A stretch of DNA of 64,000 nucleotides from Bordetella genomosp. 13 (GTDB taxonomy: Bacteria; Pseudomonadota; Gammaproteobacteria; Burkholderiales; Burkholderiaceae_B), in contig NZ_CP021111.1 of NCBI RefSeq assembly GCF_002119665.1, forward strand, positions 4,278,001-4,342,000. The letters run 5' to 3'. The notes below the pieces were generated by a model. It was not told the DNA's origin. It ran no database searches and saw only the letters and a list, made by a program, of their open reading frames with translations. The position numbers and the translations under genes were made by a program. How positions within the stretch are numbered: position 1 is the stretch's first letter; each line of letters starts with the position of its first letter. Of this stretch, positions 18,984 through 33,649 are shown piece after piece.

Positions 18984-19511
18984 TCAGCCCGGCGCGGCGC
19001 AACAATCCCGCGCGCGGCGCAGCGCGGTATCGACCTTGCGCAGCGACAGCCCGTACCGGCCCGCGACCTGCTGCCGGCTCTGCTCGTCCAGGCTGATGGC
19101 CGCGAGCACGGCCTGGTCGCGGCGCGACAGGCGCGCCACCGCGCGAGCGACGGCCCGCAGTTCGGAACGCAGTTCGGCCAATGCGGCCGGACCCGCGCCG
19201 GCATCGGGCACCGCTTCGAGCAACGCCGGCACGCCGGCCTCGTGCGCCGCGCGCCATAGACCTTCGGCGCGCAGCCGGTCGATGGCCGCGTTGCAGGCCA
19301 CTTTGTACACATAGGCTTGCGGGCAACCGGCCATGGGCGCGGCGCGCCGCTCGCCCAGGCATACCCAGGCATCGTGCAGGCTCTCGCGCGCCAGGTCGGC
19401 GCAGCCCAGGCGCATGCTCAGGCGGCGGTGCAGGCGCGCGTAGTCCTCGACCAGGCACGCCCGCAGCCGCACGGTGTCGGCCGCGGCCGGCCCCGCTGTG
19501 GGTGGCGGCAT
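18984..19511 (-). CDS. ECF-type RNA polymerase sigma factor (FecI-like)
   Basis: 175 residues. A region 2-like segment (YARLHRRLSMRLGCADLARE, SLHDAWVCL, PQAYVYKVACNAAIDRLRAE) and a region 4 HTH (LSRRDQAVLAAISLDEQSRQ, QVAGRYGLSLRKVDTALRRA) identify a short ECF sigma factor of the FecI type. It starts 3 bases after the stop of the giant haemagglutinin-like gene on the same strand, so it is almost certainly in that transcript. It has no adjacent anti-sigma gene of its own; the nearest FecR is upstream of the haemagglutinin gene. A positive loop driving the surface-protein operon is one possibility. Confidence 0.85.
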   Translation of the reverse strand: MPPPTAGPAAADTVRLRACLVEDYARLHRRLSMRLGCADLARESLHDAWVCLGERRAAPMAGCPQAYVYKVACNAAIDRLRAEGLWRAAHEAGVPALLEAVPDAGAGPAALAELRSELRAVARAVARLSRRDQAVLAAISLDEQSRQQVAGRYGLSLRKVDTALRRARDCCAAPG

Positions 19512-19514
19512 GGT

Positions 19515-22500
19515 TTACAGGCCCAGGTTGGCGCGCTCTTGCGAGGTCAACTGGCGGCGCGCGCCTTCCGGCAATTCCCCAAGGCCCAGCACGCGCACGG
19601 CATTGCGCGGGTTGTATGCGGCGCCGCCCGCGTCGCTGGCCCGGTCGCCGGGCGGCGATGCGGGCGGCTCATTGCCGAAGCCGAGGATCTGCACGCTGAT
19701 GATCGACGGCAAGTTCTGCCGCGCCGCCGTGCGCGTGCGCGATACGGCGTCCTGGGCGGTCGTGGCCGCGTTGGTGGCGGCCGCGCTGGCGCTGGTCAGG
19801 GCCCCGGTGTTCACCACCGCCGCCACCGGCACGCCCTTGGATTCCCCCTGCACCTGGACGTTGGCCGCGTTGAGCACGTGCAGCGCCGCCACGTTGATGT
19901 CGCCCGACACCCGGATGCCTGCTTCTCCCGCGTCGATCGTGCCCAGCGGCGCGATCAGGTCCACGTCGCCCGGCGGCACCTCCGGAATGGGCGCCAGCGT
20001 GGCGATGCCCGCGCCGGAAGACGGCGCCTGCGGCGACAGCGCCGCGTTGCCCCACCGGTCGTAGACGCGCCGCGGCGGCGTGTAGATCACCGTGGTCTTG
20101 GCGCCCCGCCCCGCGTTGATGTCGCCCTCCGCCGACCACCCGAGGATGCTGCCGCCGAAAGTGGTCATGATGCGAGAGAGGCCCAGCAGGATCGAGCCGC
20201 GCGAGTACAGTGAAATGTCACCCTCGCCCTGCGTGACGATGCCCGACATGCCGCCCGGCACCACGCCCTGCACGCCCACCACGATCTGCCCGGCCGGCAC
20301 GAGCACGCTGACATTGCCGCCGAACTGGGTGCGCAGGGAACTGTCGATCGTCTTATAGGACGGGGCATCCGGCGTGCCGGTGGCGGAGCTGAACATGGTG
20401 AAATCGCCGCCGCGCGCGATCGCCGCGTACTTCTGCGCATAGGGCTGGCCCGCCGCGTCGCTGCCTTGCGGGTCCAGACCGGACTGGATCTGCGCGGCCA
20501 GGTCCCCGCCCGTCTCGTAGATCGGGAACAGCGCGGCGATCGCCTGCCGGCCGCGCAGATAGCTGCCATGGCGCGGGCTGGTCGGGTCGTTGTATTCGCG
20601 CCCGCCGGCCTTCAGTTCGGCGTAGTAGACGTTGCGCAGATAGACCCGTTGCTGCTCCTGCGGCAGCGCCGCGAAGAAGGCGCGCGCATCGGTCGTGCCG
20701 TCGTACTGCTGCGCGTAGCGCCCGCGCAGCCAGTTCACCAGGTACGCCTGGCTGACGTCCGCGTACTCGCGGTTCAGGTCGCGCAGCGACTTGCCCTGCG
20801 CCGCGCGCGACCCATTCAGCTCGTCCTGCCTGGCCGCCAGCCAGTCCGGCGCGCCGGCGTCGTCGCCCTGATAGCCGAACTCGTGGCGCAGCCAGCCGGC
20901 CAGCGTCAGTTCGCCGCCGTAGACCCGCGCCACCTTGCCCGGCTGATCGGCCAGCGGATGGCCCGGGCTCATGTCGGCCTGGTTGGCCGGATCGAGATAC
21001 AGCGCCGCCAGCGCGGTCCAGTCGGGGCCGGCGGCGCCCGCGCCGGCCTGCACGGCGATCGACGCGCCCGGGCGGATGTCGCCCTCCGCGACCGGACCGA
21101 TGGAGACGAGCGAGCCCTGGTCGGCCTGATAGATGTCGCCGCCCGCCGTCACCTCCAGCGTGCCGGGGCCGGCGATCCTGAGATTGGCATAGATGATGTC
21201 GCGGCCCGCCTGGACGATCGATATGTCGTTGTCGCCGCTGTGGACGATCAGGCCGCCGATGCCGGCCTCGTCCAGCCAGTCGGAAGCGCGGTCGTCCACC
21301 CCGCCGGCGCCGATGATGTCGCGGCCGGCCCGCATCCACACCGGGCCGCCGCCGACATAGGCGGGCTGCCCCGTCGTCGGATTCCGGACGTACCCCGTGC
21401 GCAGGTTGGTGATGTCCCCGTGCACGGCGTAGAAGCGCATGGGTCCGTAGGCCGTGGCGCCGCCCTCTTCCGGGCCCCAGATCGTGAGGTAATTGCCTTC
21501 TCCGCTGGGGTTGTAGCCGTAGTAGATCGAATCGCGCGCCAGCAGATCGAGCCGGGCGCTGGGCGAGGGCATCAGCTCGGCCCGGCCGGCCACCAGCACG
21601 TCGCCGCCGGCGGCCACGACGCCGAGCGCCGGGGGATAGGGACGATCCGAGTAGGCGTCGGTGTAGTAGTCGTTGAAGGCCCCGCTGGTCGCCGAATAAG
21701 AGGAGATGGGCGCGACCGAGCCGCCCGCGGAGAACAGGTCGATGGCGGTGCGGTCCGTCCACAGCGAGAAACCCGGCGCGCTGATGGACGGAATGTACGA
21801 GCCCCCGGCGCTGGCCAGGTCGGTCGCGCCGGAATCGGTGGCATGCAGCAGGACGAGGTCGCCGCGCGTGTTGAGCCGGGCGCGGCTGTCGCCGAGCGCC
21901 AGCATCAGGCCGCTGTCGGGCCGTCGGTCGTAGGGATGCGTGGGGTCGATCGGCCGCGGGTCGGGATAGCCCACCGGAAAGCCGTAGTTCAGATCGGTCA
22001 CCAGGCCGATGGCCGAGGCGGTCACCGACACGTCGCCGCGGACGCTCACGAGCATGCCGGCTCCCGGGTTGTTCGGGTGCACGAGCGGTGCGGCGTTCAG
22101 GCGGCCGCCGATCTGCATCACGATATCTCCGCCGCCCGTCTGCCGCAGCGTGCCGCCGGCGTCGACATGGCCTCCGCCGCCGACCGCGACGACCAGGCCG
22201 CCGGACCGGGTCTCGTACAAGCCCATGTCCGGGTTGACTTCCATGGTCTGCGGCGTCGTGACGCCGGCATCGCCGCCCGCCACCAGCGTGACATTGCCGC
22301 CGCCCAGCGCGCCGATGCCGTCGAATCCGGCCAGTTCGTCCAGCCCCCAGGTGTCCGTGATATAGGCGCCGAAATTGATGCCCCAGGCGCCGTCCTGCCA
22401 GCGCAGCCATTCGTTGACGCGCCGCTGGTTCGTGTCGAGGTCGCTGATGTAGGCATAGCCGGTCATGTCGCGGCCCGCCTCGACGCGCACGTCGCCGCCG

Positions 22501-25500
22501 CCGTCGGTCAGCCATATGCCGCTGTAGGCCTGCGTTTCCGGCAAGGCGGCGCCGGCGGTGTAGACGCCGAAGCGCGAGGCATGGCGGTAGTCGCGGCCGG
22601 CGATCATGTCGAGATAGCCGGTGCCGGTGCGCACCACGCTGATCGCCTCGAGTATCCAGCCGCCGGCGCGATGGCGGTCCTCGAGAACCAGGTCGCCGCC
22701 CGCGTCCAGCGCCTGGACGGGGCGGACCGCGCGGGTATCGCTGGCCGCGAGATCGGCCCCGGAGACGAAACGCATGGACCAGGACTGCGAGCCCGGCGCG
22801 AGCATCGGCGCAAGCGCCCACACCTGTCCGGCGCGGCCGTCTTCCCAGTTGTAGTCGTCCGGGGAGGGCGGCGGCGGCGCGAAGCCGTCGTTGATGCTGC
22901 CGTTGATCTTGATGTCGCCGCCCGCGCGCACGACGAGCACGCCGGGCTCGCCCGAGCCTCGCACGCCGGGATCTGCGCCGGGACCGTAGCGATGGCCGGA
23001 GAGATCGAGATCGCCCTGCGTCGCCAAGCCGCCGGTGCTCGAGATCTCGACGCCGGGCCGCAGGTGGAAGGCCGGACCGTAGGTCCGCAGTCCGGCGAGC
23101 CGCGCCTGCAGCGCGCCATTCGCGCCGGCCGCGGCGATGAAGGCGGCGCTGTCGCCATGGATGCCGTCCAGGTAGCCCTGGTCGATGATGCCGCCCGCAG
23201 GCATATAGCCGCGGAACCCATTGACCGCGATGCTGGCCGCGCCCGAGACGTCGACGCGGGCCGCCGCGTCGATGCCGATGTCGTCGCCGCCCACGCGCGG
23301 CGCGTTGATCTCCAGCCGGCCGCGCGCAATGCCGTCGGCCGAGCGCATGTCGATCGCGGCGCCCTGGGCCAGCATCACGGCGCCCCGGCTCGCGGTCAGT
23401 TCGATCACGCCGCGATTGGAGGCGTCGATCGCCGCGCCGCGGCTGTCGGCCTGCAGCACCGTGCCGCGCACGTCGAGCACCGCGCCGGCGGCCAGCGTGA
23501 GGCCGTCGCGCGCCGACAACCGGATGCTGCCGGCTTTCCCGCCGCTGGCATCGATACGGCCGTTGACGACCAGGCTGCCGCCATCGACCGAGATCGTGAC
23601 GAACCGCGCCTTCACCTCGCTGCCGACGGCCAGGTCGCCGCGTCGGGTGGTGAAGCGGCGTTCGCCGAAGAATCCGCCGTCGTTCAGGACCGTGTTCAGG
23701 CCGCCGAAATCGGCGATGGTGTCCGCGGACAGCGAGAAGCCGCCCGCGTTGCCGCCGTCGGCGCCGCCGCGCAGGGTGCCGGAGAACAGCGCGACGCCTT
23801 GCGCCGCCGCGGCGTCGATCGCGCCGGCGTCGTTGTCGCGGGCCGATACGTCGATCACCGAACCGGCGGACTGCGTGATGCGGCCCGCGTGGCTTTCCAT
23901 CTCGAGCGTGCCGCCCCAGCTGTGTTTCGTCACCTCGAAGAACGGAATGGCGCGGCCGGCCAGGTCGACGACCGCGCGATCGCCGAACGCGATATCGCCT
24001 TGCGCCGTCATCACCAGGCGTCCGCTCGGCAAGGCGGCCGTGGTATCGAGCAGGATCGAGCTGCCCTGCAGGCGGATCTCGCCGCCCAGGTCGGCTTGCG
24101 ACGACGCAGCCGCGGTCGTGCCGGCCGCGTTCACCGCGATCGCGCCGCCCGCGCGGATGTCGATCATCGCTCCGCTGTCGGCCGTCAGCAGCGGCGTGGT
24201 GATGGTGAGATCGCCGCCCGCGTAGGACGCCGCGTCCGTGCCGCTTCGATAGAAGGAAACGCGGCCGCGGTTGTTGGCGGTCAGCTTCTCGCTGGCCACG
24301 AGATCCACACCCGAGAAACCGAGCGCCAGCCGCTCGACCTCCGCGCTGTTCTGGCTGAACGCCAGCGGATCGTAGCCAAAGTGGATCTCGCGCGCCTGGA
24401 ACGCGAGATGGCCCGAGCCCGTGCCGGCGCCGCCGGGCTGCACGGCGGGCGGCTGCAGGCTCGCGTAGGGATCGGCCACCGTGCCGCTGCCCGTGGCAAT
24501 GCCGTTCCAGACGAGCGTGTCGGCCGCCAGCACCGCGGAGGTGTCCGCTCCGCCCCAGCCGTAGATGGCCGGCGTGTTGAGCACGACCATGGTTTCGTAC
24601 GAACCGCCCGCGCGGTTGCGTGCGTCCAGCGACACATCGCCATAGAAGCGGATCCCGTCGCGCGCCGAGAACGACAGGCGCTCCAGGGCCGCCAGATTCG
24701 TCGTGGCGGGGCTGAGCAGGCGATCCAGCGTCGTCTGGGTGAGGTTCCAGCCCGTGCCCAGCACGCCCGCCGCCTGGGCGGCGGCCAGCGAGCTTTCCGT
24801 TCCCACGTTCACGGCCGGCAGGCTCAGCGCCAGGTAGCGCGCGTTCAACTGTGCCTGCCCGAGCGAGAGCTGGTCCGAGGCCACGAACCCGATAGTGCCG
24901 CGCGTGCGCAGGACTGCGCCGTCGTCCACCACCAGACGGCTGGAGACGCTGTTTCTGGGCACCACGGCCGGCAGGAGATTGAGCCAGCCGTTGGCCACCA
25001 CGAGCACCGAGCCGAATTGCGTGTCATCCGGCGTATTGCCGTTGGCGAAGACATAGCCGAGCGTGGAGTCGGGGACCGCGAAAGTATTGCGTGTGGTGTC
25101 CAGGACCGCGCCGTCCTCGACGGACACGTTGTTGCTCGCCAGCAGGATCTGCCCGGCCTCTAGCACTGCGCCCTTGCGCACGGCGATGTCAGCGTCCGTG
25201 AACAGGCGGCCCCGCAGGTAGACGTTGCCGCCCGAGCGGTAATCGTATCCGCCGCCGACGAACAGGGTTCCGGTGGCGAAGCGCGACAGGTCTTCCGCGT
25301 CCAGCGACACCATGCCCGCCGTGGCCGCGCTGCCGGCGGCCTTGATTTCCACGTCCTTATGGGCCTGGACCAGCAGCGAGCCGGCATAGCCGCCCTCGTC
25401 CGGCCCGAAGCGCGCGACGCCCTTGAAGTCCAGGGCTTCGCCGGCCTCCTCGAACGTCAGCACCAGTTGCTTGCCGTCCAGGGGCAGGCGGGCCCGCGTG

Positions 25501-28500
25501 GTGCCGAACCGGGCGGCCTGCTCCAGCGCGAAGCGGCTGTAGCTGGCCTCGTTGTATTGCGAATGCGCGCGCACGGCCTGCGCGGGCGTCACCACGATCT
25601 GGTTGGGCAGGACGGCGCCGATGCCGGTGTTGGCGACACCGAGATAGCCGCCCGCGGAGTAAGAACCGTTGGACAGCGCGATCACGCCCGGATCGCGCCG
25701 CAGCCCGGCGCCGATCTCGACGCGAAAGGCGCCGGGCAGCAGGGCGAAGTTCGACGGCAGCAAGGTATACGTGCCCGCGGCGAGTCCGGGAATGCCCGCG
25801 GGCACCTGGACTTGCTGGCCGACGGCCGGGTCGCCCGCCCCCTTTTCCTGCATGAGAGGCGCGTAGTCCGCGGTATAGCCGGGCACGATGGCGTAGACGC
25901 GGTTGCCGGCCGCGCTAAAGCCGAAACTGGGATTGGCCGCCGCCAGCGGCGTCCTGAGGATGTCGACCGAACCGCCGCGGCCGGCGACGAAGCCGGCCCC
26001 GGCCAGCTCGCCGCCGCCCGAGAGGTCGAGCACGGCGCCGGGTTCGGCCTCGAACCTGTCCGCGACGATCTCGACCCTGCCCATGGCGTCCAGCGCCATG
26101 AGATTGGGCAGAGTCAGTTCCCGGCCGTTGTAGTGGTACTTGAGACCGTCCACCGTGCCGCCATAGGGGATGGCCAGCCCTGCAGCGCTGACGGAAGTGA
26201 TGCTGCCGTCGCGCAACAGTACGCGCCCGCCGTTCTGATATTCGTAGAACCCCGCGCCTCCCACGCTGACGCCCAGGCGGATGTCGCCCAGCGGCGCGTG
26301 CAGCACGCCGCCCTGGTCGATGAGACCGGCAAGCAGGCCGAGCGAGCCGAAGATGGACATGGGCGCCGGCGCGGCGCGGCCGTTGCTCCGGATGGCCAGG
26401 ACGCTGTCGGGGCGGGGCCGGACACTGCCGTCCTGCTTGACGGCGCCGGCGAGTATCGTCGCCTTCGCGCCAGTCACGGGATAGATCTGCGACGCCGTCA
26501 GCGTCATGTTGCCCGCCGTGGCGATCGACCCGCCGCGCAGGCGGATGTCGCCCCGGCTGGAAAGATGGATGTCCGCGAAGCCCGCCGCCTCGAACGGACG
26601 CGTGATGGTTGCGAAATTCGATCCGGGCACGAAGGCGATGTCGTAGCTGTCGGAGGCGCCGAACGCGAGCCAGTTGCCGATATCGATCAGGTCCGCCTCG
26701 ACCGCCAGGGTGGCGGCGTTGGCCGTCACGGCCGGCTGCCAGGAACCCCCCTTCACCTTGCGCAGGCCGGAGTGCAGCCCCTCCATGCCGCTCACCCCGC
26801 GCGACACCGAGCCGTCCAGACGCACGACTGGCGCCGAGAGGGCGACATGGGCGCCGGGCGTCTCGTCGGCCACGGCGATCACGCCGCGCCGCAGGGCCAG
26901 GCCCTGGTTCAGTTGCAGCGATACGTCGCCCTCGAAGCGGATGACGTCGGCGCTCCACAACGACAGGCTGCCGAAGCCGCCGGCACGCACCTGTTCGGCG
27001 CTGATCCGCGCCTGCGCATAGCCCAGCGCCGCGTGGTCTTCGCCCGGCGCCAGCCCGGCGGGCAGTAAGGACGGCTGGCGCGTCTGCGACACGCTCAGGA
27101 TGCGCGGCGCCTTGACCGCATCGGGGACGCCGTCGCCGTAGAAGCGCGTTTCGAGCACCAGGTTGAGGCTGCCGTCCGCCGCGCCCGCGCCGCCGCCGGC
27201 CGCGCGCATCTCGCCGTCCAGCGCAAGCCCCGTGGACGAAGCGAGGGTGATCGTGCCGCCCTTGCCCGCCAGGGTCCGCAAGCCGGAACGCGTCGACGGA
27301 CCGGCCGTGCCGGCGTCCAGGTCTATTGTCGCGCTGGCCGCGGACGCGTCCAGCACGGCGCCTGGACGGACGATCACCAGCAAGGGCGTGAGCGATGCCG
27401 GCAGCGCGGGGTCGTCCAGCGAGCTGGCATCGGTGCCGATGCGGATCGTGCCGCCGTCATGGACGTGCGCGAAAGGCCGGCCGCCCGGCTCGTCGCGTCC
27501 GCTCACCGCGCGCCCGGCTACGTCGAGCACGGCATTGCCGCCTATCCATATCGAGCGCCCCGACACGGGATCGCCCGGCTGGCCGATGCCCAGCCCGCTG
27601 TTGATGGCGATCGTGCCGCCCCACGCGTCGAGCCGGCCGTCGATCGTGACCTGCCCGTTCGCCGAGATGGCGATCGACTGGCCGGGGTCGACTTCGATGC
27701 GCGAGCCGGTGCCGATCGTCACCCCCGCGGCGTTGACGAAAGACAGGCTGGCTCCCTTGCGCTGCGCGAACGCCGCGCCTGTGGGATCCGCCTGGTAGAG
27801 CGGCGGCGTCCACACCTGGAAGTCGTCCCCCTCCGCCGGCGCGGCAGCACCGGTTTCGGCCAGCCGGTACACCGGCATTTCCACGTCCACGACCGTGCCG
27901 TCCGCGACGGCGATGGAAGTGGGCAGCGCCCCGCCCCCGATCTCGTAGTGCGCGAAGCCGCTGCGAAAGAGGCCGGGCCTCAGCAGGACCTGCCCGGCCT
28001 GCAGCGCCGCGCCGTCCTCGGCGACCAGCACCGGCAAGCCGCCCACGCTGAGCGTGCCGCCTCCCGCGACGCCATGGCCGAGCAAGGCGCCGTCCAGCGT
28101 CAGCCGGCCCGCGGCCGCGCCGCCGCTGTTGACGTAGAGATTGGCCGCGAGGGTGATGTCGCCGCCCTTGCCGCCCCGCACCTGCCCGTCCTCCAGGATG
28201 GCCGCGCCCGAGGACACGTCGATCCGGCTGCCCGCCGCAAGCGCCAGGTCCCCCGTGGCGGCGAGGTGGACTTCGCCGCCGTCGATCCAGCCGCGCCGGC
28301 TCGCGCCGGCGGCATCCTGCGCGGCATCGGCCCGCACGCCGCGCAGGTCCAGCACCGCGCCTGCGCGCAGCGAGATCCGCGAGCCGCCGTCGACGTCCAG
28401 CAGCGGGCTCGCCGGCCCCCAACGCTGATCGTGGTCGAAGACATTGGTGGCGTCGACAGCTCCGCCGCGCGCGGTGACCGTGGCGGCGATGTCGACGTCC

Positions 28501-31031
28501 GGCGCGATCAGTTGAAGCGCTCCGCCTTCGGCCAGCGCCAGGTCCTGTGTGATGGCGATGCCGCTGGCGCTGGCGAGCTCCAGCCGGCCCAGTCCCATGC
28601 CGCTCAGGTGGGCCGCGTCCAGCCATAGCGTGTCGGCCGGCGGCTCGCCCTGTTGCGCCCCGCCCACCACGATGCGGCTGTCGTAGGGAGACTGGAAGCC
28701 CACGCCGGCCACGCGGCCGACGACCAGGCCCGCCGCGCGCGCCACCTGCGTCTGGCCCAGCAGGTAGCCGTCCTGCAGTCCGGCGGGGCGCGCCTGGAAC
28801 TGGCGCGGTCCGTTGTAGACCGCCGCGTCGATATCGCCGTCGAGCACCGCGGCCGGCGCGCTGACGATCAGCGTTCCCGCGTCGCGACCGACGGTATAGC
28901 CGGGCTCGCGCCACTGGGAAGGGCCGATCAGGGGACTGCGATAGTAAGAGGTCACGCCCCAGCGCGGGCTGGCGGCCTCGTATCCCTTGTAGAAGCCGCG
29001 ATAGGCGACGTCCGCGGACGCCGAGTCCAGGCTGTAGAGCCCGCCCGCCGCGCCGCGCAGCCATGACTGCCGCACATAGCCCGTCTGTACGTCCAGCGTG
29101 CCGCCCGCCAGGTTCACCGTCGAGCCCGTCTGGGTGACCACCTGGCCGCCGGCCAGCGTCACCGTGCCGCCCTGCGCGGCCCATTCGCCCGCCGTATGCC
29201 CCTGGTTGCCCAGATAGCCCCCGACCTCCAGCAGGCCGCCGGCCGTGTACCAGCGATCCGACGCATAGCCGCCCGTGCCCGCGGGCAGCAGAACCAGGCG
29301 GCGCCGGTCGACCCACACATCGTTGTTGATGAGTCTGCCGCTGTCGCGGTTCACGGGAGCATCGCGCAGTTCGTTGCCCTGCACGTTGACCTGGATGCTG
29401 TTGCTCTCCATCGCCACGCGCACGCCCACCGCGCCCGATACGTCGACCTGCGCCCGATCGGCCAGCACGCTGCGGCCCTTGGCGTCGGCCACGACCTGGC
29501 CGCCCGTGGCCAGCGTCAGGCTGCCGCCCTCGAACGCCACCTCGCCGCCCGAGACGATCTCGATGCGCGACTGGTCGCGCCGATCGCCCAGCCGCGAATA
29601 GTTGTCGAAGGCGCCGGGCGCGGCCAGCGTGCGCAGCCGGTCCTGCGCGGCGGATTCGCTCAGCAAGGCGCTGCGCTGGCTGTCCAGCGCCGTCTGGCCG
29701 TCGTCCTCGATCAGCACCGCCGTGATCGCACCCGCGCCCAGCGCGACCCTGCCGGCGGCGTCGCCGTGCGAGTTCAGCAGGTGTATGGTGCCGCGCGTGT
29801 TCACGGTGGTGGTGGCCACCGCCACGCCCTGTTGGCGCACGTCGTGGCCGGCCAGCGTGACGTCGCCCTCGCGCGCCAGGATCAGGCCTGTGTTGAGCAC
29901 GGCGCCGGAAGGGTTCGGCACGAGGTTGCCGTCGACGTCCAGGCCGTCGGGATCGCGCTGCGCCGCGATCTCGCTGCCGCGCGTGGTGGCATGCGTGACG
30001 CCCTCGGTTCCCATGCCCTTGCGCAGGATGAAGTGGTCGCCGGCGGCCAGCAGCGCCTGCCCCTTCTGTGTGGCGAGGGCGCCGGCGTTGGAGACTTCCG
30101 TGCCCAGCAGCAGGACGTAGCCCCCGCCCTGCGTCACCGAGGCAGGCTCGCGCGTGGAAATCCGCGCGCCGGCCTGCACCGTGACCTTGCCCGCCGCGTC
30201 CGTGAAGCTGGGCGTGTCGGCGGTGGCGCCATACAGGCCGTGGTCACGGAACTGCGCATCGGAGATGTGGGCGGCCGCGACGGCGAGATTGCGCACGTCG
30301 ACCTGGCTGGCGCCGCCGAACACGATGCCGTTGCGGTTGACGACCAGCACCGTGCCGTCGGCCTGGATCCGGCCCAGGACCTGGCTCGGCCGCGCCGCGG
30401 GATCGACGACCCGGTTCAGCACGGCCCAGCTGTCGTCCTGCTGGAACCGCACCGTGGTGTCCCTGCCGACGTTGAAGGTCTCCCAGTTCAGGATCGCGCG
30501 GTCGGCGGTCTGCTCGACCTGCACGGTCGTGTGGCCGTTCGCCCGGCTCTGCACAGGCAGCCTGGCGTTCTGCCACAGGGCCGCGTCGCGCACCGCGGAA
30601 GGCGCCAGGGCGTCGTCGGCCGCGCCCGCGGCCAGTTTCAGCCCGCCTTCGGCCAGGCCGTCGGGCACCGGGGACCCGGCGGCCTGAGCCGCTTGCCGGG
30701 CAGCCGCCTGGGCGGCCTGCGCCGCCGCGATCGCTCCGGCCGTACGGTTCAGGTTCTCGACGGAGCGCGCGAGCTTCTGGCGCGCCGCCGCCTGCTGCGC
30801 GGCCGAGCCGCTCGGCCCCGGGCCGGCGCGGCCGGCCTGCGCCCTGGCCGAGGCTCCCGCGGCGGCAGTCTTGCCCGCTCCTTCCGCGGCGAACCAGGCG
30901 CGGGCCTGCGCCGAACCGGGAAGCGACAGCCCGCCGGCCATCAGCAGCGCCGCCAGCGCCTGGGCCAACGGTGTCAACCTTGCGGCGGAAACGGATGCAT
31001 GGCGACGGAAACGCGGGGACGGGAAATTCAT
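19515..31031 (-). CDS. Giant filamentous haemagglutinin family exoprotein (TPS + DUF3739)
   Basis: 3838 residues from the ATG at 31031, which has AGGAAAAGG just upstream; an ATG at 31058 would add nine residues. N-terminal signal region (MNFPSPRFRRHASVSAARLT... to SAQA, about residue 43), an Ala/Gln-rich stretch to about 130, then a haemagglutination-activity/TPS secretion domain (about 150-430; QVEQTADRAILNWETFNVGR, VLVVNRNGIVFGGASQVDVR). Most of the rest is a repetitive glycine- and aspartate-rich beta-helix. The C-terminal few hundred residues contain a DUF3739 filamentous-haemagglutinin block (FGGSILGWSAEGDINAGRGA, EVPPGDVDLIAPLGTIDAGE). Such proteins are normally exported by a TpsB partner and act as adhesins or surface fibres. 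No TpsB gene is visible. Four RGD tripeptides occur (SSRGDIRL, TRRGDLAV, SVRGDVSV, NTRGDLVL), though GD is common in beta-helices. It is followed directly by an ECF sigma gene and preceded by fecR and a sigma gene, implying surface-signal control. Confidence 0.9.
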   Translation of the reverse strand: MNFPSPRFRRHASVSAARLTPLAQALAALLMAGGLSLPGSAQARAWFAAEGAGKTAAAGASARAQAGRAGPGPSGSAAQQAAARQKLARSVENLNRTAGAIAAAQAAQAAARQAAQAAGSPVPDGLAEGGLKLAAGAADDALAPSAVRDAALWQNARLPVQSRANGHTTVQVEQTADRAILNWETFNVGRDTTVRFQQDDSWAVLNRVVDPAARPSQVLGRIQADGTVLVVNRNGIVFGGASQVDVRNLAVAAAHISDAQFRDHGLYGATADTPSFTDAAGKVTVQAGARISTREPASVTQGGGYVLLLGTEVSNAGALATQKGQALLAAGDHFILRKGMGTEGVTHATTRGSEIAAQRDPDGLDVDGNLVPNPSGAVLNTGLILAREGDVTLAGHDVRQQGVAVATTTVNTRGTIHLLNSHGDAAGRVALGAGAITAVLIEDDGQTALDSQRSALLSESAAQDRLRTLAAPGAFDNYSRLGDRRDQSRIEIVSGGEVAFEGGSLTLATGGQVVADAKGRSVLADRAQVDVSGAVGVRVAMESNSIQVNVQGNELRDAPVNRDSGRLINNDVWVDRRRLVLLPAGTGGYASDRWYTAGGLLEVGGYLGNQGHTAGEWAAQGGTVTLAGGQVVTQTGSTVNLAGGTLDVQTGYVRQSWLRGAAGGLYSLDSASADVAYRGFYKGYEAASPRWGVTSYYRSPLIGPSQWREPGYTVGRDAGTLIVSAPAAVLDGDIDAAVYNGPRQFQARPAGLQDGYLLGQTQVARAAGLVVGRVAGVGFQSPYDSRIVVGGAQQGEPPADTLWLDAAHLSGMGLGRLELASASGIAITQDLALAEGGALQLIAPDVDIAATVTARGGAVDATNVFDHDQRWGPASPLLDVDGGSRISLRAGAVLDLRGVRADAAQDAAGASRRGWIDGGEVHLAATGDLALAAGSRIDVSSGAAILEDGQVRGGKGGDITLAANLYVNSGGAAAGRLTLDGALLGHGVAGGGTLSVGGLPVLVAEDGAALQAGQVLLRPGLFRSGFAHYEIGGGALPTSIAVADGTVVDVEMPVYRLAETGAAAPAEGDDFQVWTPPLYQADPTGAAFAQRKGASLSFVNAAGVTIGTGSRIEVDPGQSIAISANGQVTIDGRLDAWGGTIAINSGLGIGQPGDPVSGRSIWIGGNAVLDVAGRAVSGRDEPGGRPFAHVHDGGTIRIGTDASSLDDPALPASLTPLLVIVRPGAVLDASAASATIDLDAGTAGPSTRSGLRTLAGKGGTITLASSTGLALDGEMRAAGGGAGAADGSLNLVLETRFYGDGVPDAVKAPRILSVSQTRQPSLLPAGLAPGEDHAALGYAQARISAEQVRAGGFGSLSLWSADVIRFEGDVSLQLNQGLALRRGVIAVADETPGAHVALSAPVVRLDGSVSRGVSGMEGLHSGLRKVKGGSWQPAVTANAATLAVEADLIDIGNWLAFGASDSYDIAFVPGSNFATITRPFEAAGFADIHLSSRGDIRLRGGSIATAGNMTLTASQIYPVTGAKATILAGAVKQDGSVRPRPDSVLAIRSNGRAAPAPMSIFGSLGLLAGLIDQGGVLHAPLGDIRLGVSVGGAGFYEYQNGGRVLLRDGSITSVSAAGLAIPYGGTVDGLKYHYNGRELTLPNLMALDAMGRVEIVADRFEAEPGAVLDLSGGGELAGAGFVAGRGGSVDILRTPLAAANPSFGFSAAGNRVYAIVPGYTADYAPLMQEKGAGDPAVGQQVQVPAGIPGLAAGTYTLLPSNFALLPGAFRVEIGAGLRRDPGVIALSNGSYSAGGYLGVANTGIGAVLPNQIVVTPAQAVRAHSQYNEASYSRFALEQAARFGTTRARLPLDGKQLVLTFEEAGEALDFKGVARFGPDEGGYAGSLLVQAHKDVEIKAAGSAATAGMVSLDAEDLSRFATGTLFVGGGYDYRSGGNVYLRGRLFTDADIAVRKGAVLEAGQILLASNNVSVEDGAVLDTTRNTFAVPDSTLGYVFANGNTPDDTQFGSVLVVANGWLNLLPAVVPRNSVSSRLVVDDGAVLRTRGTIGFVASDQLSLGQAQLNARYLALSLPAVNVGTESSLAAAQAAGVLGTGWNLTQTTLDRLLSPATTNLAALERLSFSARDGIRFYGDVSLDARNRAGGSYETMVVLNTPAIYGWGGADTSAVLAADTLVWNGIATGSGTVADPYASLQPPAVQPGGAGTGSGHLAFQAREIHFGYDPLAFSQNSAEVERLALGFSGVDLVASEKLTANNRGRVSFYRSGTDAASYAGGDLTITTPLLTADSGAMIDIRAGGAIAVNAAGTTAAASSQADLGGEIRLQGSSILLDTTAALPSGRLVMTAQGDIAFGDRAVVDLAGRAIPFFEVTKHSWGGTLEMESHAGRITQSAGSVIDVSARDNDAGAIDAAAAQGVALFSGTLRGGADGGNAGGFSLSADTIADFGGLNTVLNDGGFFGERRFTTRRGDLAVGSEVKARFVTISVDGGSLVVNGRIDASGGKAGSIRLSARDGLTLAAGAVLDVRGTVLQADSRGAAIDASNRGVIELTASRGAVMLAQGAAIDMRSADGIARGRLEINAPRVGGDDIGIDAAARVDVSGAASIAVNGFRGYMPAGGIIDQGYLDGIHGDSAAFIAAAGANGALQARLAGLRTYGPAFHLRPGVEISSTGGLATQGDLDLSGHRYGPGADPGVRGSGEPGVLVVRAGGDIKINGSINDGFAPPPPSPDDYNWEDGRAGQVWALAPMLAPGSQSWSMRFVSGADLAASDTRAVRPVQALDAGGDLVLEDRHRAGGWILEAISVVRTGTGYLDMIAGRDYRHASRFGVYTAGAALPETQAYSGIWLTDGGGDVRVEAGRDMTGYAYISDLDTNQRRVNEWLRWQDGAWGINFGAYITDTWGLDELAGFDGIGALGGGNVTLVAGGDAGVTTPQTMEVNPDMGLYETRSGGLVVAVGGGGHVDAGGTLRQTGGGDIVMQIGGRLNAAPLVHPNNPGAGMLVSVRGDVSVTASAIGLVTDLNYGFPVGYPDPRPIDPTHPYDRRPDSGLMLALGDSRARLNTRGDLVLLHATDSGATDLASAGGSYIPSISAPGFSLWTDRTAIDLFSAGGSVAPISSYSATSGAFNDYYTDAYSDRPYPPALGVVAAGGDVLVAGRAELMPSPSARLDLLARDSIYYGYNPSGEGNYLTIWGPEEGGATAYGPMRFYAVHGDITNLRTGYVRNPTTGQPAYVGGGPVWMRAGRDIIGAGGVDDRASDWLDEAGIGGLIVHSGDNDISIVQAGRDIIYANLRIAGPGTLEVTAGGDIYQADQGSLVSIGPVAEGDIRPGASIAVQAGAGAAGPDWTALAALYLDPANQADMSPGHPLADQPGKVARVYGGELTLAGWLRHEFGYQGDDAGAPDWLAARQDELNGSRAAQGKSLRDLNREYADVSQAYLVNWLRGRYAQQYDGTTDARAFFAALPQEQQRVYLRNVYYAELKAGGREYNDPTSPRHGSYLRGRQAIAALFPIYETGGDLAAQIQSGLDPQGSDAAGQPYAQKYAAIARGGDFTMFSSATGTPDAPSYKTIDSSLRTQFGGNVSVLVPAGQIVVGVQGVVPGGMSGIVTQGEGDISLYSRGSILLGLSRIMTTFGGSILGWSAEGDINAGRGAKTTVIYTPPRRVYDRWGNAALSPQAPSSGAGIATLAPIPEVPPGDVDLIAPLGTIDAGEAGIRVSGDINVAALHVLNAANVQVQGESKGVPVAAVVNTGALTSASAAATNAATTAQDAVSRTRTAARQNLPSIISVQILGFGNEPPASPPGDRASDAGGAAYNPRNAVRVLGLGELPEGARRQLTSQERANLGL

Positions 31032-31206
31032 GGAATGCCTTTTCCTGATGAGAGCCACGGGCGGCGCGCCGGCGGCCGCCCTGCGCGGTCCCTGCCCGCC
31101 TCATGGCCGGCAGCCGCGCTTCCATCCCAAGACGAATCCCACAGGCAAAAGGGATAACGCCATTTCGCCCGGCATACTTTTGTCGACGGCCGCCCCAACG
31201 CGAAAG

Positions 31207-31223
31207 CGCCCCCGCAGGGGGCG
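31207..31223 (-). terminator. Candidate hairpin after fecR
   Basis: CGCCCCC-GCA-GGGGGCG, a 7-bp GC stem 9 bases after the fecR-like stop, followed on the minus strand by CTTTCGCG. The short U content makes it a weak terminator or attenuator. It lies in the 200-base gap before the giant haemagglutinin gene, so it may separate regulatory from structural transcription. No convincing promoter is visible in the rest of the gap. Confidence 0.4.
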
Positions 31224-31231
31224 GCAAGCCG

Positions 31232-32197
31232 TCAGCTCATCAGCACGATGCCGCCCGGCAGCTCCGTCAGCCGGGCGCCGTACAGATCGCGCAGCATCTG
31301 CAGCGCGGCGTCCGTCTGGTCGATGGCGAAGCGCATGCGTACGGACTGGCGGCCCAGCTCGGCATTGCGCAGCACGACGCGGCCCGGCCGGTAGCGGTTG
31401 ATCTCGTCGATCACCTCGGCCAGCGGCCGGCCGACGAAATTCAGCGACCCGGTGCGCCAGGCCGACACGACGGCCGGATCGACGGCATCGACCTCGCCCA
31501 TGCCGCGCTGGTCGTAGCTCAGTTGCCTGTCGGGCTGCAGCTGGCGCCGCTCGGCGCCATACAGCAGGTCCACGGCACCGTCCAGGCAGGTGACGCACAC
31601 GGAGCGTCCGGTGTAGCGGACGTTGAAACGCGCCGCCTGGGCGGACAGGCGCCCGTTGCCGGCCAGCACGGTGACCGGCCGGCGCAGGCCGGGGCTGGTC
31701 TGGACCTCGACTTCGCCACCGAGCAGTTCGATGTCTTCGGCATGCAGATCGATGCGCGTCTGCGTGTTCATCCGCACGGTGGCCTCGGGCAGCGCCACCT
31801 GGCGCTGCTCGCCGGTGCCCGTGCGATAGTCTGCCGCCAGGTCCATGACGGACGGCCACAGCGCGAACGGCGGTCGCACGGCCAGCACGGCGCAGGCGGG
31901 CGCCGCCAGGGCCGCTCCGATGAAGGCGCGCCGGCCCGGCCGCCAGGCGGCGCCGCGCGTAGGCCGCGCGGGATGAGCCAGCCGCGGGTCGCGGCGAGCG
32001 GCTTCGTCCAGCACGGGCGCCATTGCCTGCCATGCCTCCATCACCTCGCGCCAGGCGCGCGCGTGTTGGGGGCTGCGCGCGCACCACTGGCGAAACGCGT
32101 CGGCCTGGGCGCGCGTCAGCCGCTCGGAACGCAGCTCCACCCACCAGGCATCGGCCTGTTGCTGGATCGTGGCGTAGGACTCGGGGCGGGCAGTCAT
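31232..32197 (-). CDS. FecR family anti-sigma/sigma regulator
   Basis: 321 residues. The cytoplasmic N-terminal domain carries the FecR/DUF4880 pattern (ADAWWVELRSERLTRAQADA, FRQWCARSPQHARAWREV), a single membrane segment lies near residues 88-110 (RRAFIGAALAAPACAVLAV), and the periplasmic part has the FecR domain (TGTGEQRQVALPEATVRMNT, LLGGEVEVQ) and a C-terminal signalling segment (SWRTGSLNFVG-like, here SAWRTGSLNFVGRPLAEVID). FecR proteins hold an ECF sigma inactive until a periplasmic signal arrives, normally from the STN domain of an outer-membrane receptor. It lies 8 bases after the sigma gene and near a stand-alone STN protein, consistent with one signalling module. Confidence 0.92.
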   Translation of the reverse strand: MTARPESYATIQQQADAWWVELRSERLTRAQADAFRQWCARSPQHARAWREVMEAWQAMAPVLDEAARRDPRLAHPARPTRGAAWRPGRRAFIGAALAAPACAVLAVRPPFALWPSVMDLAADYRTGTGEQRQVALPEATVRMNTQTRIDLHAEDIELLGGEVEVQTSPGLRRPVTVLAGNGRLSAQAARFNVRYTGRSVCVTCLDGAVDLLYGAERRQLQPDRQLSYDQRGMGEVDAVDPAVVSAWRTGSLNFVGRPLAEVIDEINRYRPGRVVLRNAELGRQSVRMRFAIDQTDAALQMLRDLYGARLTELPGGIVLMS

Positions 32198-32205
32198 GGC
32201 GGAAC

Positions 32206-32757
32206 TCAGAATTTGCGGCGGCCGATGGTGCTGCCGCGCTGCACGGCCTGCGTATCGGCCAGTCGCGCACGGCAGTGCTGCATGCCCTGCTGCAACTCTT
32301 TCTTGACCGTGGCCACCGACACCTGGAAGCGCTCGGCGATCTCGGCATTCAAGAGGCCGTCGACGCGCGCCGCGGCCAGCATCGCGCGGCGGCGCGCCGG
32401 CAGTTCGGCCAGCGCGGCCTCGAGGGCGGCGAGGTCGCGCCTGGCCGTGACGATGCGCGCCGGATCGGCCGCCTCGTCGGCGATGTGCATCAGCGCCTCG
32501 CGTTCGCTGTCGGAGACCAGGGCGTTGTCGCGGCGATAGGCGTCGGTGGCGATGTTGGCCGCCATCCGCAGCAGATAGGCGTCGGGATTATGCACCGGTC
32601 CAGCGGGCTGCGCCGTGGCCTCCAGGCGCAACCAGGTTTCCTGCAGCGCGTCGGCGGCGGCATCGCGCGACCCGACGATGCGCTCGAGCCGCCCGCGCAG
32701 TTCGGCGTAGCGGGCCGCCAGGCGCAGGCGCAGCGTGGCGCGGGGGCTGTCGTTCAT
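32206..32757 (-). CDS. ECF RNA polymerase sigma factor (FecI-like)
   Basis: 183 residues from the ATG at 32757, which overlaps the stop of the STN gene as ATGA. Region 2 (YAELRGRLERIVGSRDAAAD, ALQETWLRLE, NPDAYLLRMAANIATDAYRR) and region 4 (ELPARRRAMLAAARVDGLLN, AEIAERFQVSVATVKKELQQ) are clear. FecI-type sigma factors recruit RNA polymerase to a few surface-function promoters and are released by FecR. The likely target is the giant haemagglutinin-like gene that follows fecR, and possibly a TpsB gene elsewhere. Confidence 0.9.
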   Translation of the reverse strand: MNDSPRATLRLRLAARYAELRGRLERIVGSRDAAADALQETWLRLEATAQPAGPVHNPDAYLLRMAANIATDAYRRDNALVSDSEREALMHIADEAADPARIVTARRDLAALEAALAELPARRRAMLAAARVDGLLNAEIAERFQVSVATVKKELQQGMQHCRARLADTQAVQRGSTIGRRKF

Positions 32758-33521
32758 GGCCTCGCGTTTCCGGAATACGCCACGGCGGGACAGGCGGGTT
32801 CGCTGTGCGGTCCGGCCGGCAGCACCAGGATGGAAACGGGTTGCGGCATGGCCGGAGGCGGCGGCGCCCCGATGCGCAGGCGGCGCACCACGTTCGACAC
32901 GGCGCTGTCGCGAGCGGAGTCGCCGGTGCTGTCCAGCAGGCGCATCCGCTGTACGGCGCCCTGGGCGTCCAGGCGCAGCTGCAGGGCCAGCCGGTAGCCG
33001 CCCGGCCGCGTCGTGCGAGAGGCGCACAAGGCGCGGCTCAGTGTGTTCTGGATCAATCCGATATAGGCCGCGGTGTCGGCGCCCGAGCCGGAAGCGCCGG
33101 GAATGTCCGCCGCCGCCACCAGTGCGGGCGTCCGCAGCGCGGGCGCCGCGGACGCCGGATCGGGCTCGGGCACATGCACCACGACCGAGCGCGAATCGGG
33201 GTAGCGCACCCGCAGGTCCATGCCGGTCAGCAGCAATTGCAGAGCACGGCCGGCGGCATAGCGGCCGCGCACGCCGTTGGCGCGCAGCTCGGCATGGCGG
33301 TCGTCGAGCAGCACGGCCATGCCGGTCTGCCGGCTGTAGGCTTCGAGGGCATCGCCCAGACCCTGCGCGGGGATATCGAAGTCGAGCATCGTCTGGTCGG
33401 ACGCCATGGAGGAAGCGGCAGCGGCCGCCGCCTGTGCATGGGCATTCGCGAACCACGGCGGCACGCACGCCAGAAGCGCCACCAAGGCAAGCAAACCGAC
33501 CGATGCGCTGCGGCCTGTCAT
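32754..33521 (-). CDS. Stand-alone STN domain protein with TonB C-terminal-like domain
   Basis: 255 residues from the ATG at 33521; an in-frame GTG at 33587 is a longer alternative. Residues 1-30 form a signal peptide (cleavage after AHA). Residues about 45-115 are a secretin/TonB N-terminal short domain (LDFDIPAQGLGDALEAYSRQ, TGMAVLLDD, ANGVRGRYAAGRALQLLLTG), the module that in FecA-type receptors signals to FecR. Residues about 152-235 look like a TonB/TolA C-terminal domain (YIGLIQNTLSRALC, GYRLALQLRLDAQGAVQRMR). There is no receptor barrel. It is translationally coupled to the sigma gene, so it is probably the periplasmic input to the sigma/FecR pair; whether it links to a TpsB channel or senses something else is unknown. 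Confidence 0.82.
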   Translation of the reverse strand: MTGRSASVGLLALVALLACVPPWFANAHAQAAAAAASSMASDQTMLDFDIPAQGLGDALEAYSRQTGMAVLLDDRHAELRANGVRGRYAAGRALQLLLTGMDLRVRYPDSRSVVVHVPEPDPASAAPALRTPALVAAADIPGASGSGADTAAYIGLIQNTLSRALCASRTTRPGGYRLALQLRLDAQGAVQRMRLLDSTGDSARDSAVSNVVRRLRIGAPPPPAMPQPVSILVLPAGPHSEPACPAVAYSGNARP

Positions 33522-33649
33522 AGGATGTTCTGGGAAAGCCAGCGCGCCCGGCGCCAAGAGGGAAGAAGCGCCCTGGCCGGGGCGCACCGCATCGTAGTGG
33601 CGGAATATGACCTAGCGGTGACACGCGGGGACCGCCCCCGCCCGAGCGC

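Follow-up and report, generated by a model that had tools for sequence, protein, structure and literature searches.

How is the gene for a giant exoprotein controlled, and how is its product exported, when an ECF sigma factor gene begins directly behind it and no exporter gene lies close by? The question is raised by a locus in the window, which here means the whole 64,000-nucleotide stretch of Bordetella genomosp. 13 DNA that was analyzed. The original prediction had set out an STN protein, an ECF sigma factor, FecR, an exoprotein of 3838 residues with TPS and DUF3739 domains and a second ECF sigma factor starting 3 bases after the tpsA stop, with no TpsB gene nearby.

Organization of the locus

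ORF and domain checks bear out this layout, with five genes in one direction on the minus strand at that place, both exoprotein domains recovered by Pfam and the 3-base spacing evident from the ORF coordinates. A TpsB query against the window ORFs of at least 90 aa gave nothing at 1e-5, in agreement with the predicted absence of a nearby exporter gene. The features, in window coordinates, are as follows.

32754..33521, minus strand: vreA-like gene, 255 aa, with STN and a TolA/TonB-like C-terminal domain, barrel-less, with a signal-peptide-like start
32206..32757, minus strand: sigma-1, VreI-type ECF sigma factor (Pfam, tree, dN/dS)
31232..32197, minus strand: VreR-like FecR-family anti-sigma (Pfam DUF4880 and FecR)
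19515..31031, minus strand: TpsA-type exoprotein, 3838 aa from ATG (Pfam, NCBIfam adhes_NPXG)
~29745-30587, minus strand: TPS domain of TpsA (Pfam)
~19824-20156, minus strand: DUF3739 of TpsA (Pfam)
19515..19700, minus strand: conserved C-terminal tail of TpsA, bearing VxVLGFG-like and VRVLGxG-like motifs (alignment of TpsA C-termini)
18984..19511, minus strand: sigma-2, second ECF sigma factor (Pfam, tree), in the position of the linked tpsB of other cassettes
31127..31155, minus strand: ECF-type promoter candidate ATCCCTT-N14-CGTCTTGG before tpsA (pattern scan)
33591..33623, minus strand: Pho-box-like tandem repeat (33607-33623) and -10-like TACGAT upstream of vreA (pattern scan)

The vreA-like and sigma-1 ORFs overlap by four bases, and 200 bases separate fecR from tpsA. 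Both flanks are ordinary: one carries a VTT-domain gene and mutL, and the other an AMIN/Amidase_3 gene convergent with sigma-2, followed by tsaE and a fumarase/aspartase-type lyase gene. The nearest named relatives of the window proteins are from B. ansorpii, and in a comparison of the two none of the five cassette genes has an internal stop.

A VreA-like protein and its relation to known systems

The 255-aa protein had been described as a free STN protein. The barrel is indeed absent, but the STN domain is not bare, and a TolA/TonB-like C-terminal domain is also present (TIGR01352, TonB C-terminal, in NCBIfam: 28.1 bits against a cut-off of 27.1; the TonB_2 match is slightly under the Pfam cut-off). 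The Pfam STN match is weak and under cut-off (E 0.048), and the NCBIfam FecA model matches the signalling region far under its own cut-off; the STN assignment comes from matches to the signalling domains of PupA (3.1e-5) and FpvA (7.2e-4) among PDB sequences, from homologues that carry PF07660, and from the predicted fold. For an AlphaFold model (mean pLDDT 77, pTM 0.45, 21 rows), the matches include FpvA (4.8e-6) and TolA domain III (7.8e-4 at best), the TolA match being weak by itself. At 1e-10 only the 255-aa protein matched the VreA-family profile in the window, and thus no FecA-type barrel protein was seen there.

The STN protein is VreA-like and has the anatomy known from PUMA3, whose VreA is described as having an STN domain and a TolA/TonB-like domain and no barrel (PMC2729926, 2009), and the order vreA, ECF sigma, FecR-type anti-sigma is that of PUMA3/VreAIR. 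PUMA3-type clusters with tpsA alone behind are reported for R. palustris and Janthinobacterium in the same 2009 paper (PMC2729926). Because barrel-less VreA and tpsA-only clusters were both published then, there is nothing new in a free STN or in a tpsA that lacks tpsB, and what the original prediction offered as oddities is ordinary for VreAIR-type loci as that paper presents them. In P. aeruginosa, VreI activation and virulence are reported to be unaffected by deletion of vreA (PMC7035377).

Likeness to PUMA3 (P. aeruginosa VreA-VreI-VreR and PdtA-PdtB; PMC2729926, PMC4971064, PMC7035377) covers the barrel-less VreA, the ECF sigma, the FecR-type anti-sigma and a TpsA as the predicted target, as well as the exporter order PdtB-exbB-exbD-tonB-porin, which is seen in B. 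ansorpii, and the PhoB-type promoter before vreA, to which a predicted Pho-box-like pattern corresponds in the window. Unlike PUMA3, the window has a second VreI-type sigma gene behind tpsA, which is absent from the portions of the PUMA3 accounts consulted; its exporter seems to be unlinked, no Hxc type II secretion genes were seen between the parts, and no Pho-box-like site was found before its tpsA. The FecA-FecR-FecI and FpvA-FpvR-FpvI/PvdS systems share the STN domain, the FecR-type anti-sigma and the ECF sigma, but the window has no barrel receptor, its linked gene codes for an exoprotein and not for iron uptake, and neither of its sigmas groups with the 18 FecI-type rows of the tree described below. 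FecA-type iron signalling was rejected on these grounds, the lack of a barrel receptor among the window matches at 1e-10 and the separation of the sigmas from FecI-type rows. FhaB/FhaC of Bordetella likewise comprises a TPS-domain exoprotein that requires a TpsB, but the window cassette differs in its DUF3739 C-terminus, in a probable TpsB of the PdtB type and not of the other B. ansorpii types, and in its predicted cassette-borne sigma control.

Distribution of the cassette

The search found 32 VreA-like loci, 19 of which were taken on as whole genomes for a count of cassettes. The count drew on every DUF3739 row (58) and every ShlB row listed, on 58 VreA-family rows (excluding those with FecA-type reading frames of ~800 aa or longer) and on 84 top sigma rows; the VreA and sigma rows are the matches listed. 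For at least 47 of the 58 DUF3739 genes in these genomes, a VreA-like gene lies 12.4-14.9 kb upstream in the same orientation, and for 11 there is none among the matches listed. Sigma-2 is directly behind at least 23 of the 58, and tpsB lies within 2 kb behind 11; among the matches listed, none has both and 24 have neither a sigma-2 nor a near tpsB. Zero overlap has a chance of 0.0018 under random assignment, a value that is only indicative, as the genomes are related. The sigma gene behind G009:C9 was removed from the 23 since it is the sigma-1 of the next cassette. Cassettes with sigma-2 occur in four genera (Bordetella, Achromobacter, Janthinobacterium and Variovorax), and the two B. ansorpii genomes have 13 and 11 DUF3739 genes.

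In a survey of 151 genomes from the same family, which scored at most 22 candidates per genome so that absences are lower bounds, DUF3739 is present in 16, and at least 3, G001 included, have a sigma scoring >190 bits against sigma-2; all seven such sigmas are directly behind a DUF3739 gene. Several loci vary in arrangement. At L046 2759-18548 (B. ansorpii), vreA, sigma-1 and fecR are oriented away from tpsA and sigma-2 and are not in line with them; three Variovorax loci have a short second FecR-like stretch in the fecR-tpsA interval (L069 3266-3598, L097 15677-15928 and L098 3245-3520); and extra sigma and FecR-like pairs adjoin cassettes in Achromobacter pestifer (L066 18677-20000) and Variovorax (L076 17208-19996).

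The window TpsA has its TPS domain near the N-terminus (PF05860, 95 bits; TIGR01901, 74.5 bits), and a TPS domain together with such great length would also suit a contact-dependent inhibition toxin of the CdiA type. Alignment of TpsA C-termini shows a conserved DUF3739 region and tail where a variable toxin tip would be expected, and the gene behind tpsA codes for a sigma factor and not for an immunity-like protein. With a conserved DUF3739 tail at the C-terminus, and a sigma gene, tpsB or neither behind tpsA, the toxin reading was rejected, and we consider it extremely improbable. Two strand-like motifs, VxVLGFG and VRVLGxG, are kept at the C-terminus in most of the aligned TpsA tails (window 19515-19700).

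A second sigma lineage behind tpsA

A tree of 97 sigma rows contains a branch (support 100/99) that separates 77 cassette sigmas from 20 others, the latter being 18 FecI-type rows and two Variovorax cassette neighbors. Three Pseudomonas vreA-linked sigmas were included, and P. aeruginosa VreI itself was not among the rows. Sigma-1 falls among the vreA-linked sigmas and is separated from those of the FecI type (100/99). The 77 include a group of 26 (99/79) made up of the 24 second sigmas plus two more from cassette regions, and 23 of the 24 group at 100/94, the exception being that of L046, which has a long branch. The region-4 motif [VIL]DT.[LVM]R is present in 23 of the 24 second sigmas and in none of 49 first sigmas, 18 FecI-type sigmas or six others; it was fitted post hoc, first as VDTA[LM]R (13/24) and then widened. 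Region 4.2 of sigma factors reads the -35 element, and this, taken with the private region-4 motif, suggests that sigma-2 probably reads another promoter than sigma-1. One of the sigma-2 cysteines is also common among FecI-type rows.

The novel part of the locus is this second sigma gene directly behind tpsA, in the place of the exporter gene. No description of such a gene was found among the matches listed in the ECF/FecR/TPS/STN and PUMA3/PdtA literature, subscription journals being mostly outside the scope of that search, and DUF3739 as the sole literature query found no papers.

The sequence properties of sigma-2 bear on whether it is simply a copy of sigma-1 in decay that regulates nothing. 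Between the window and B. ansorpii, dN/dS is 0.07 for sigma-1, 0.15 for fecR, 0.27 for vreA, 0.30 for tpsA and 0.32 for sigma-2, and the weaker constraint on sigma-2 than on sigma-1 is what decay would predict; so is a region 2 that in the window copy scores 13.9 bits against a Pfam cut-off of 24, as is the absence of sigma-2 from some cassettes among the matches listed. However, the sigma-2 ratio is below 1, no internal stop is present in the window or L049 copy, and region 4 scores over its cut-off. The gene is retained behind tpsA in four genera and carries the private motif in 23 of 24 cases, and its predicted model (pLDDT 79, pTM 0.45) resembles ECF sigmas, matching ECF sigma structures of which three score at 0.001 or better. 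Decay is thus an unlikely account of sigma-2.

A probable unlinked exporter

The original prediction proposed a search of the rest of the genome for a lone TpsB. Such a gene was found in both B. ansorpii genomes, and for Bordetella genomosp. 13 a 90%-identical protein, P0161, is listed, outside the window; the species name is given by one source. POTRA_2 and ShlB domains are present in the lone B. ansorpii TpsB, of which there is one per genome. Against the DUF3739-linked A. pestifer TpsB the two copies score 7e-270 and 8e-268, and the best value for other B. ansorpii TpsB-type ORFs against the same protein is 2e-19 (with 6e-10 among the values). P. aeruginosa ShlB-family proteins, taken as PdtB, are ~66% identical over 89%. 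No ShlB match lies within 20 kb of any DUF3739 gene in either B. ansorpii genome (13 and 11 genes).

At L050 (B. ansorpii) the lone tpsB is followed by exbB, exbD and genes with TonB_2 and Porin_5 products, the same order as that of the P. aeruginosa operon, reported as pdtB-exbB2-exbD2-tonB4-PA0696 (PMC7035377). The exporter of the window TpsA thus seems to be unlinked and not absent, and encoded outside the window; the TpsA-TpsB pairing itself is one that we infer from homology, and some TpsB proteins are reported to serve more than one TpsA (PMC5422565). In the ExbB-type protein of the lone tpsB operon (L050 8024-9901), DUF2341 and a lectin-like domain precede the ExbB part. L050 and L054 share, ahead of the lone tpsB, a conserved block with GTTATCCCT and CGTC that resembles the tpsA promoter; as a sigma-1 promoter it was rejected and excluded from the count below, its GTTATCCCT-CGTC spacing being 12 bases versus 15.

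Candidate promoters and proposed regulation

The promoter candidate ATCCCTT-N14-CGTCTTGG (31127-31155) occurs once in the window versus 0.02 expected, and the form A[TG]CC[CG]TT-N14-CGTC is present upstream of tpsA in 10 of 10 members of the window's sigma-1 clade and in none of 34 others. The motif was first spotted by eye and the clade members share descent, and its clade-following distribution is support for sigma-1 control of tpsA, not proof. Together with PUMA3 homology and conservation of the cassette, it lends support to the proposed control of the exoprotein by a sigma circuit. Transcription of tpsA independently of the neighboring sigma factors is set against by the recurrent linkage of the cassette, by the promoter that follows the sigma-1 clade and by the reported VreI dependence of P. 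aeruginosa pdtA (PMC4971064), and we regard it as highly unlikely.

A scan of 13 genomes for the sigma-1 motif with at most one mismatch gave 106 matches versus 63 for a reversed-pattern control, which was equal or higher in G001, G002, G003 and G010. Seven matches are exact, five of them before the tpsA of orthologous cassettes (G001, G003, G004, G005 and G008) and two elsewhere (G006 and G012). The scan of these 13 genomes yielded no further sigma-1 targets, and no regulon is claimed.

The Pho-box-like site upstream of vreA is the one match in the window, versus 0.02 expected. The pattern, chosen after inspection of the sequences, occurs with a -10-like hexamer in 30 of the 50 regions ahead of vreA (mean after shuffling, 0.0) and is missing from the other 20; among sigma-2 cassettes, 17 of 24 have it before vreA and seven do not. 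Upstream stretches of <150 bases were excluded from this Pho scan, and both the Pho and tpsA promoter scans excluded hits scoring <60 and TpsA hits of <=100. Before tpsA the pattern is found in none of 44 regions in the sense reading, the window's own included, and in five of 44 in antisense. Four of these antisense sites (L063, L065, L105 and L116) are in Janthinobacterium or Oxalicibacterium, where three of the cassettes have a visible linked tpsB; the fifth, in L046, is the divergent vreA site. In P. aeruginosa, PhoB is reported to drive vreAIR and also to be required at pdtA (PMC4971064), and contact with A549 human cells to induce pdtA via VreI (PMC7035377), the latter in favor of the contact sensing raised in the original prediction; at the window locus, phosphate input may come only through vreAIR.

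A model for the cassette

The reading that we favor, and consider fairly probable, is that a single TpsA is served here by its own cell-surface-signalling cassette of the PUMA3/VreAIR type, in which PhoB acts on vreAIR, sigma-1 on tpsA and sigma-2, and an unlinked TpsB exports the product. We infer each regulatory step, building on the observed genes, their conservation, the sigma-2 group with its motif and the lone TpsB of the relatives. Phosphate starvation would turn on vreA-vreI-vreR via PhoB, as the Pho-box-like site and P. aeruginosa suggest, and the FecR-like VreR would, by homology, restrain sigma-1 until an envelope cue releases it. VreA may relay that cue, with its STN end toward VreR and its TolA/TonB-like end toward an envelope partner, although the reported vreA deletion in P. 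aeruginosa speaks against this part. The promoter and its match to the clade point to 31127-31155 as the site from which sigma-1 would transcribe tpsA and sigma-2 as one message, their co-transcription being suggested by spacing. TpsA would then be exported by the PdtB-type TpsB whose homologue is described above, and sigma-2, made after the 11.5-kb tpsA message and with another recognition helix, would be a second, feed-forward output. Counting against the reading are the DUF3739 genes for which no VreA-like gene, or neither sigma-2 nor a near tpsB, is among the matches listed, the vreA regions that lack the Pho-like pattern, and the failure of the sigma-1 motif to reveal more targets in the 13 genomes.

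It is possible, if doubtful, that sigma-1 and sigma-2 share the one FecR as their anti-sigma, as FpvI and PvdS share FpvR, and that a single cue would release the two for parallel action on different promoters. This alternative is compatible with most of the favored reading, sigma-2 being of VreI-type descent and not followed in the window by a separate anti-sigma gene, and FpvR is reported as a precedent for two sigmas per anti-sigma (PMC4256889). However, the same source presents FpvI as thought to bind FpvR via region 4, and region 4 of sigma-2 differs from that of sigma-1. A speculative reading, which we judge decidedly unlikely, is that the cassette acts as a checkpoint: the TolA/TonB-like domain of VreA would pair with the periplasmic TpsA tail (VxVLGFG, VRVLGxG) and report export status to FecR, and sigma-2 would signal completion of the message and switch on a second layer, for example the unlinked operon of the common exporter; a single exporter would then serve many TpsA cassettes, each with private sigmas.

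An apparent oddity thereby becomes a testable family, with up to 13 DUF3739 exoproteins per genome, most with their own signalling set. The DUF3739 exoproteins of B. ansorpii apparently share one PdtB-type exporter, and a second sigma lineage occupies the place of the exporter gene in four genera. Should sigma-2 prove to be a genuine output, a further gene program would be coupled to the finishing of a giant exoprotein message.
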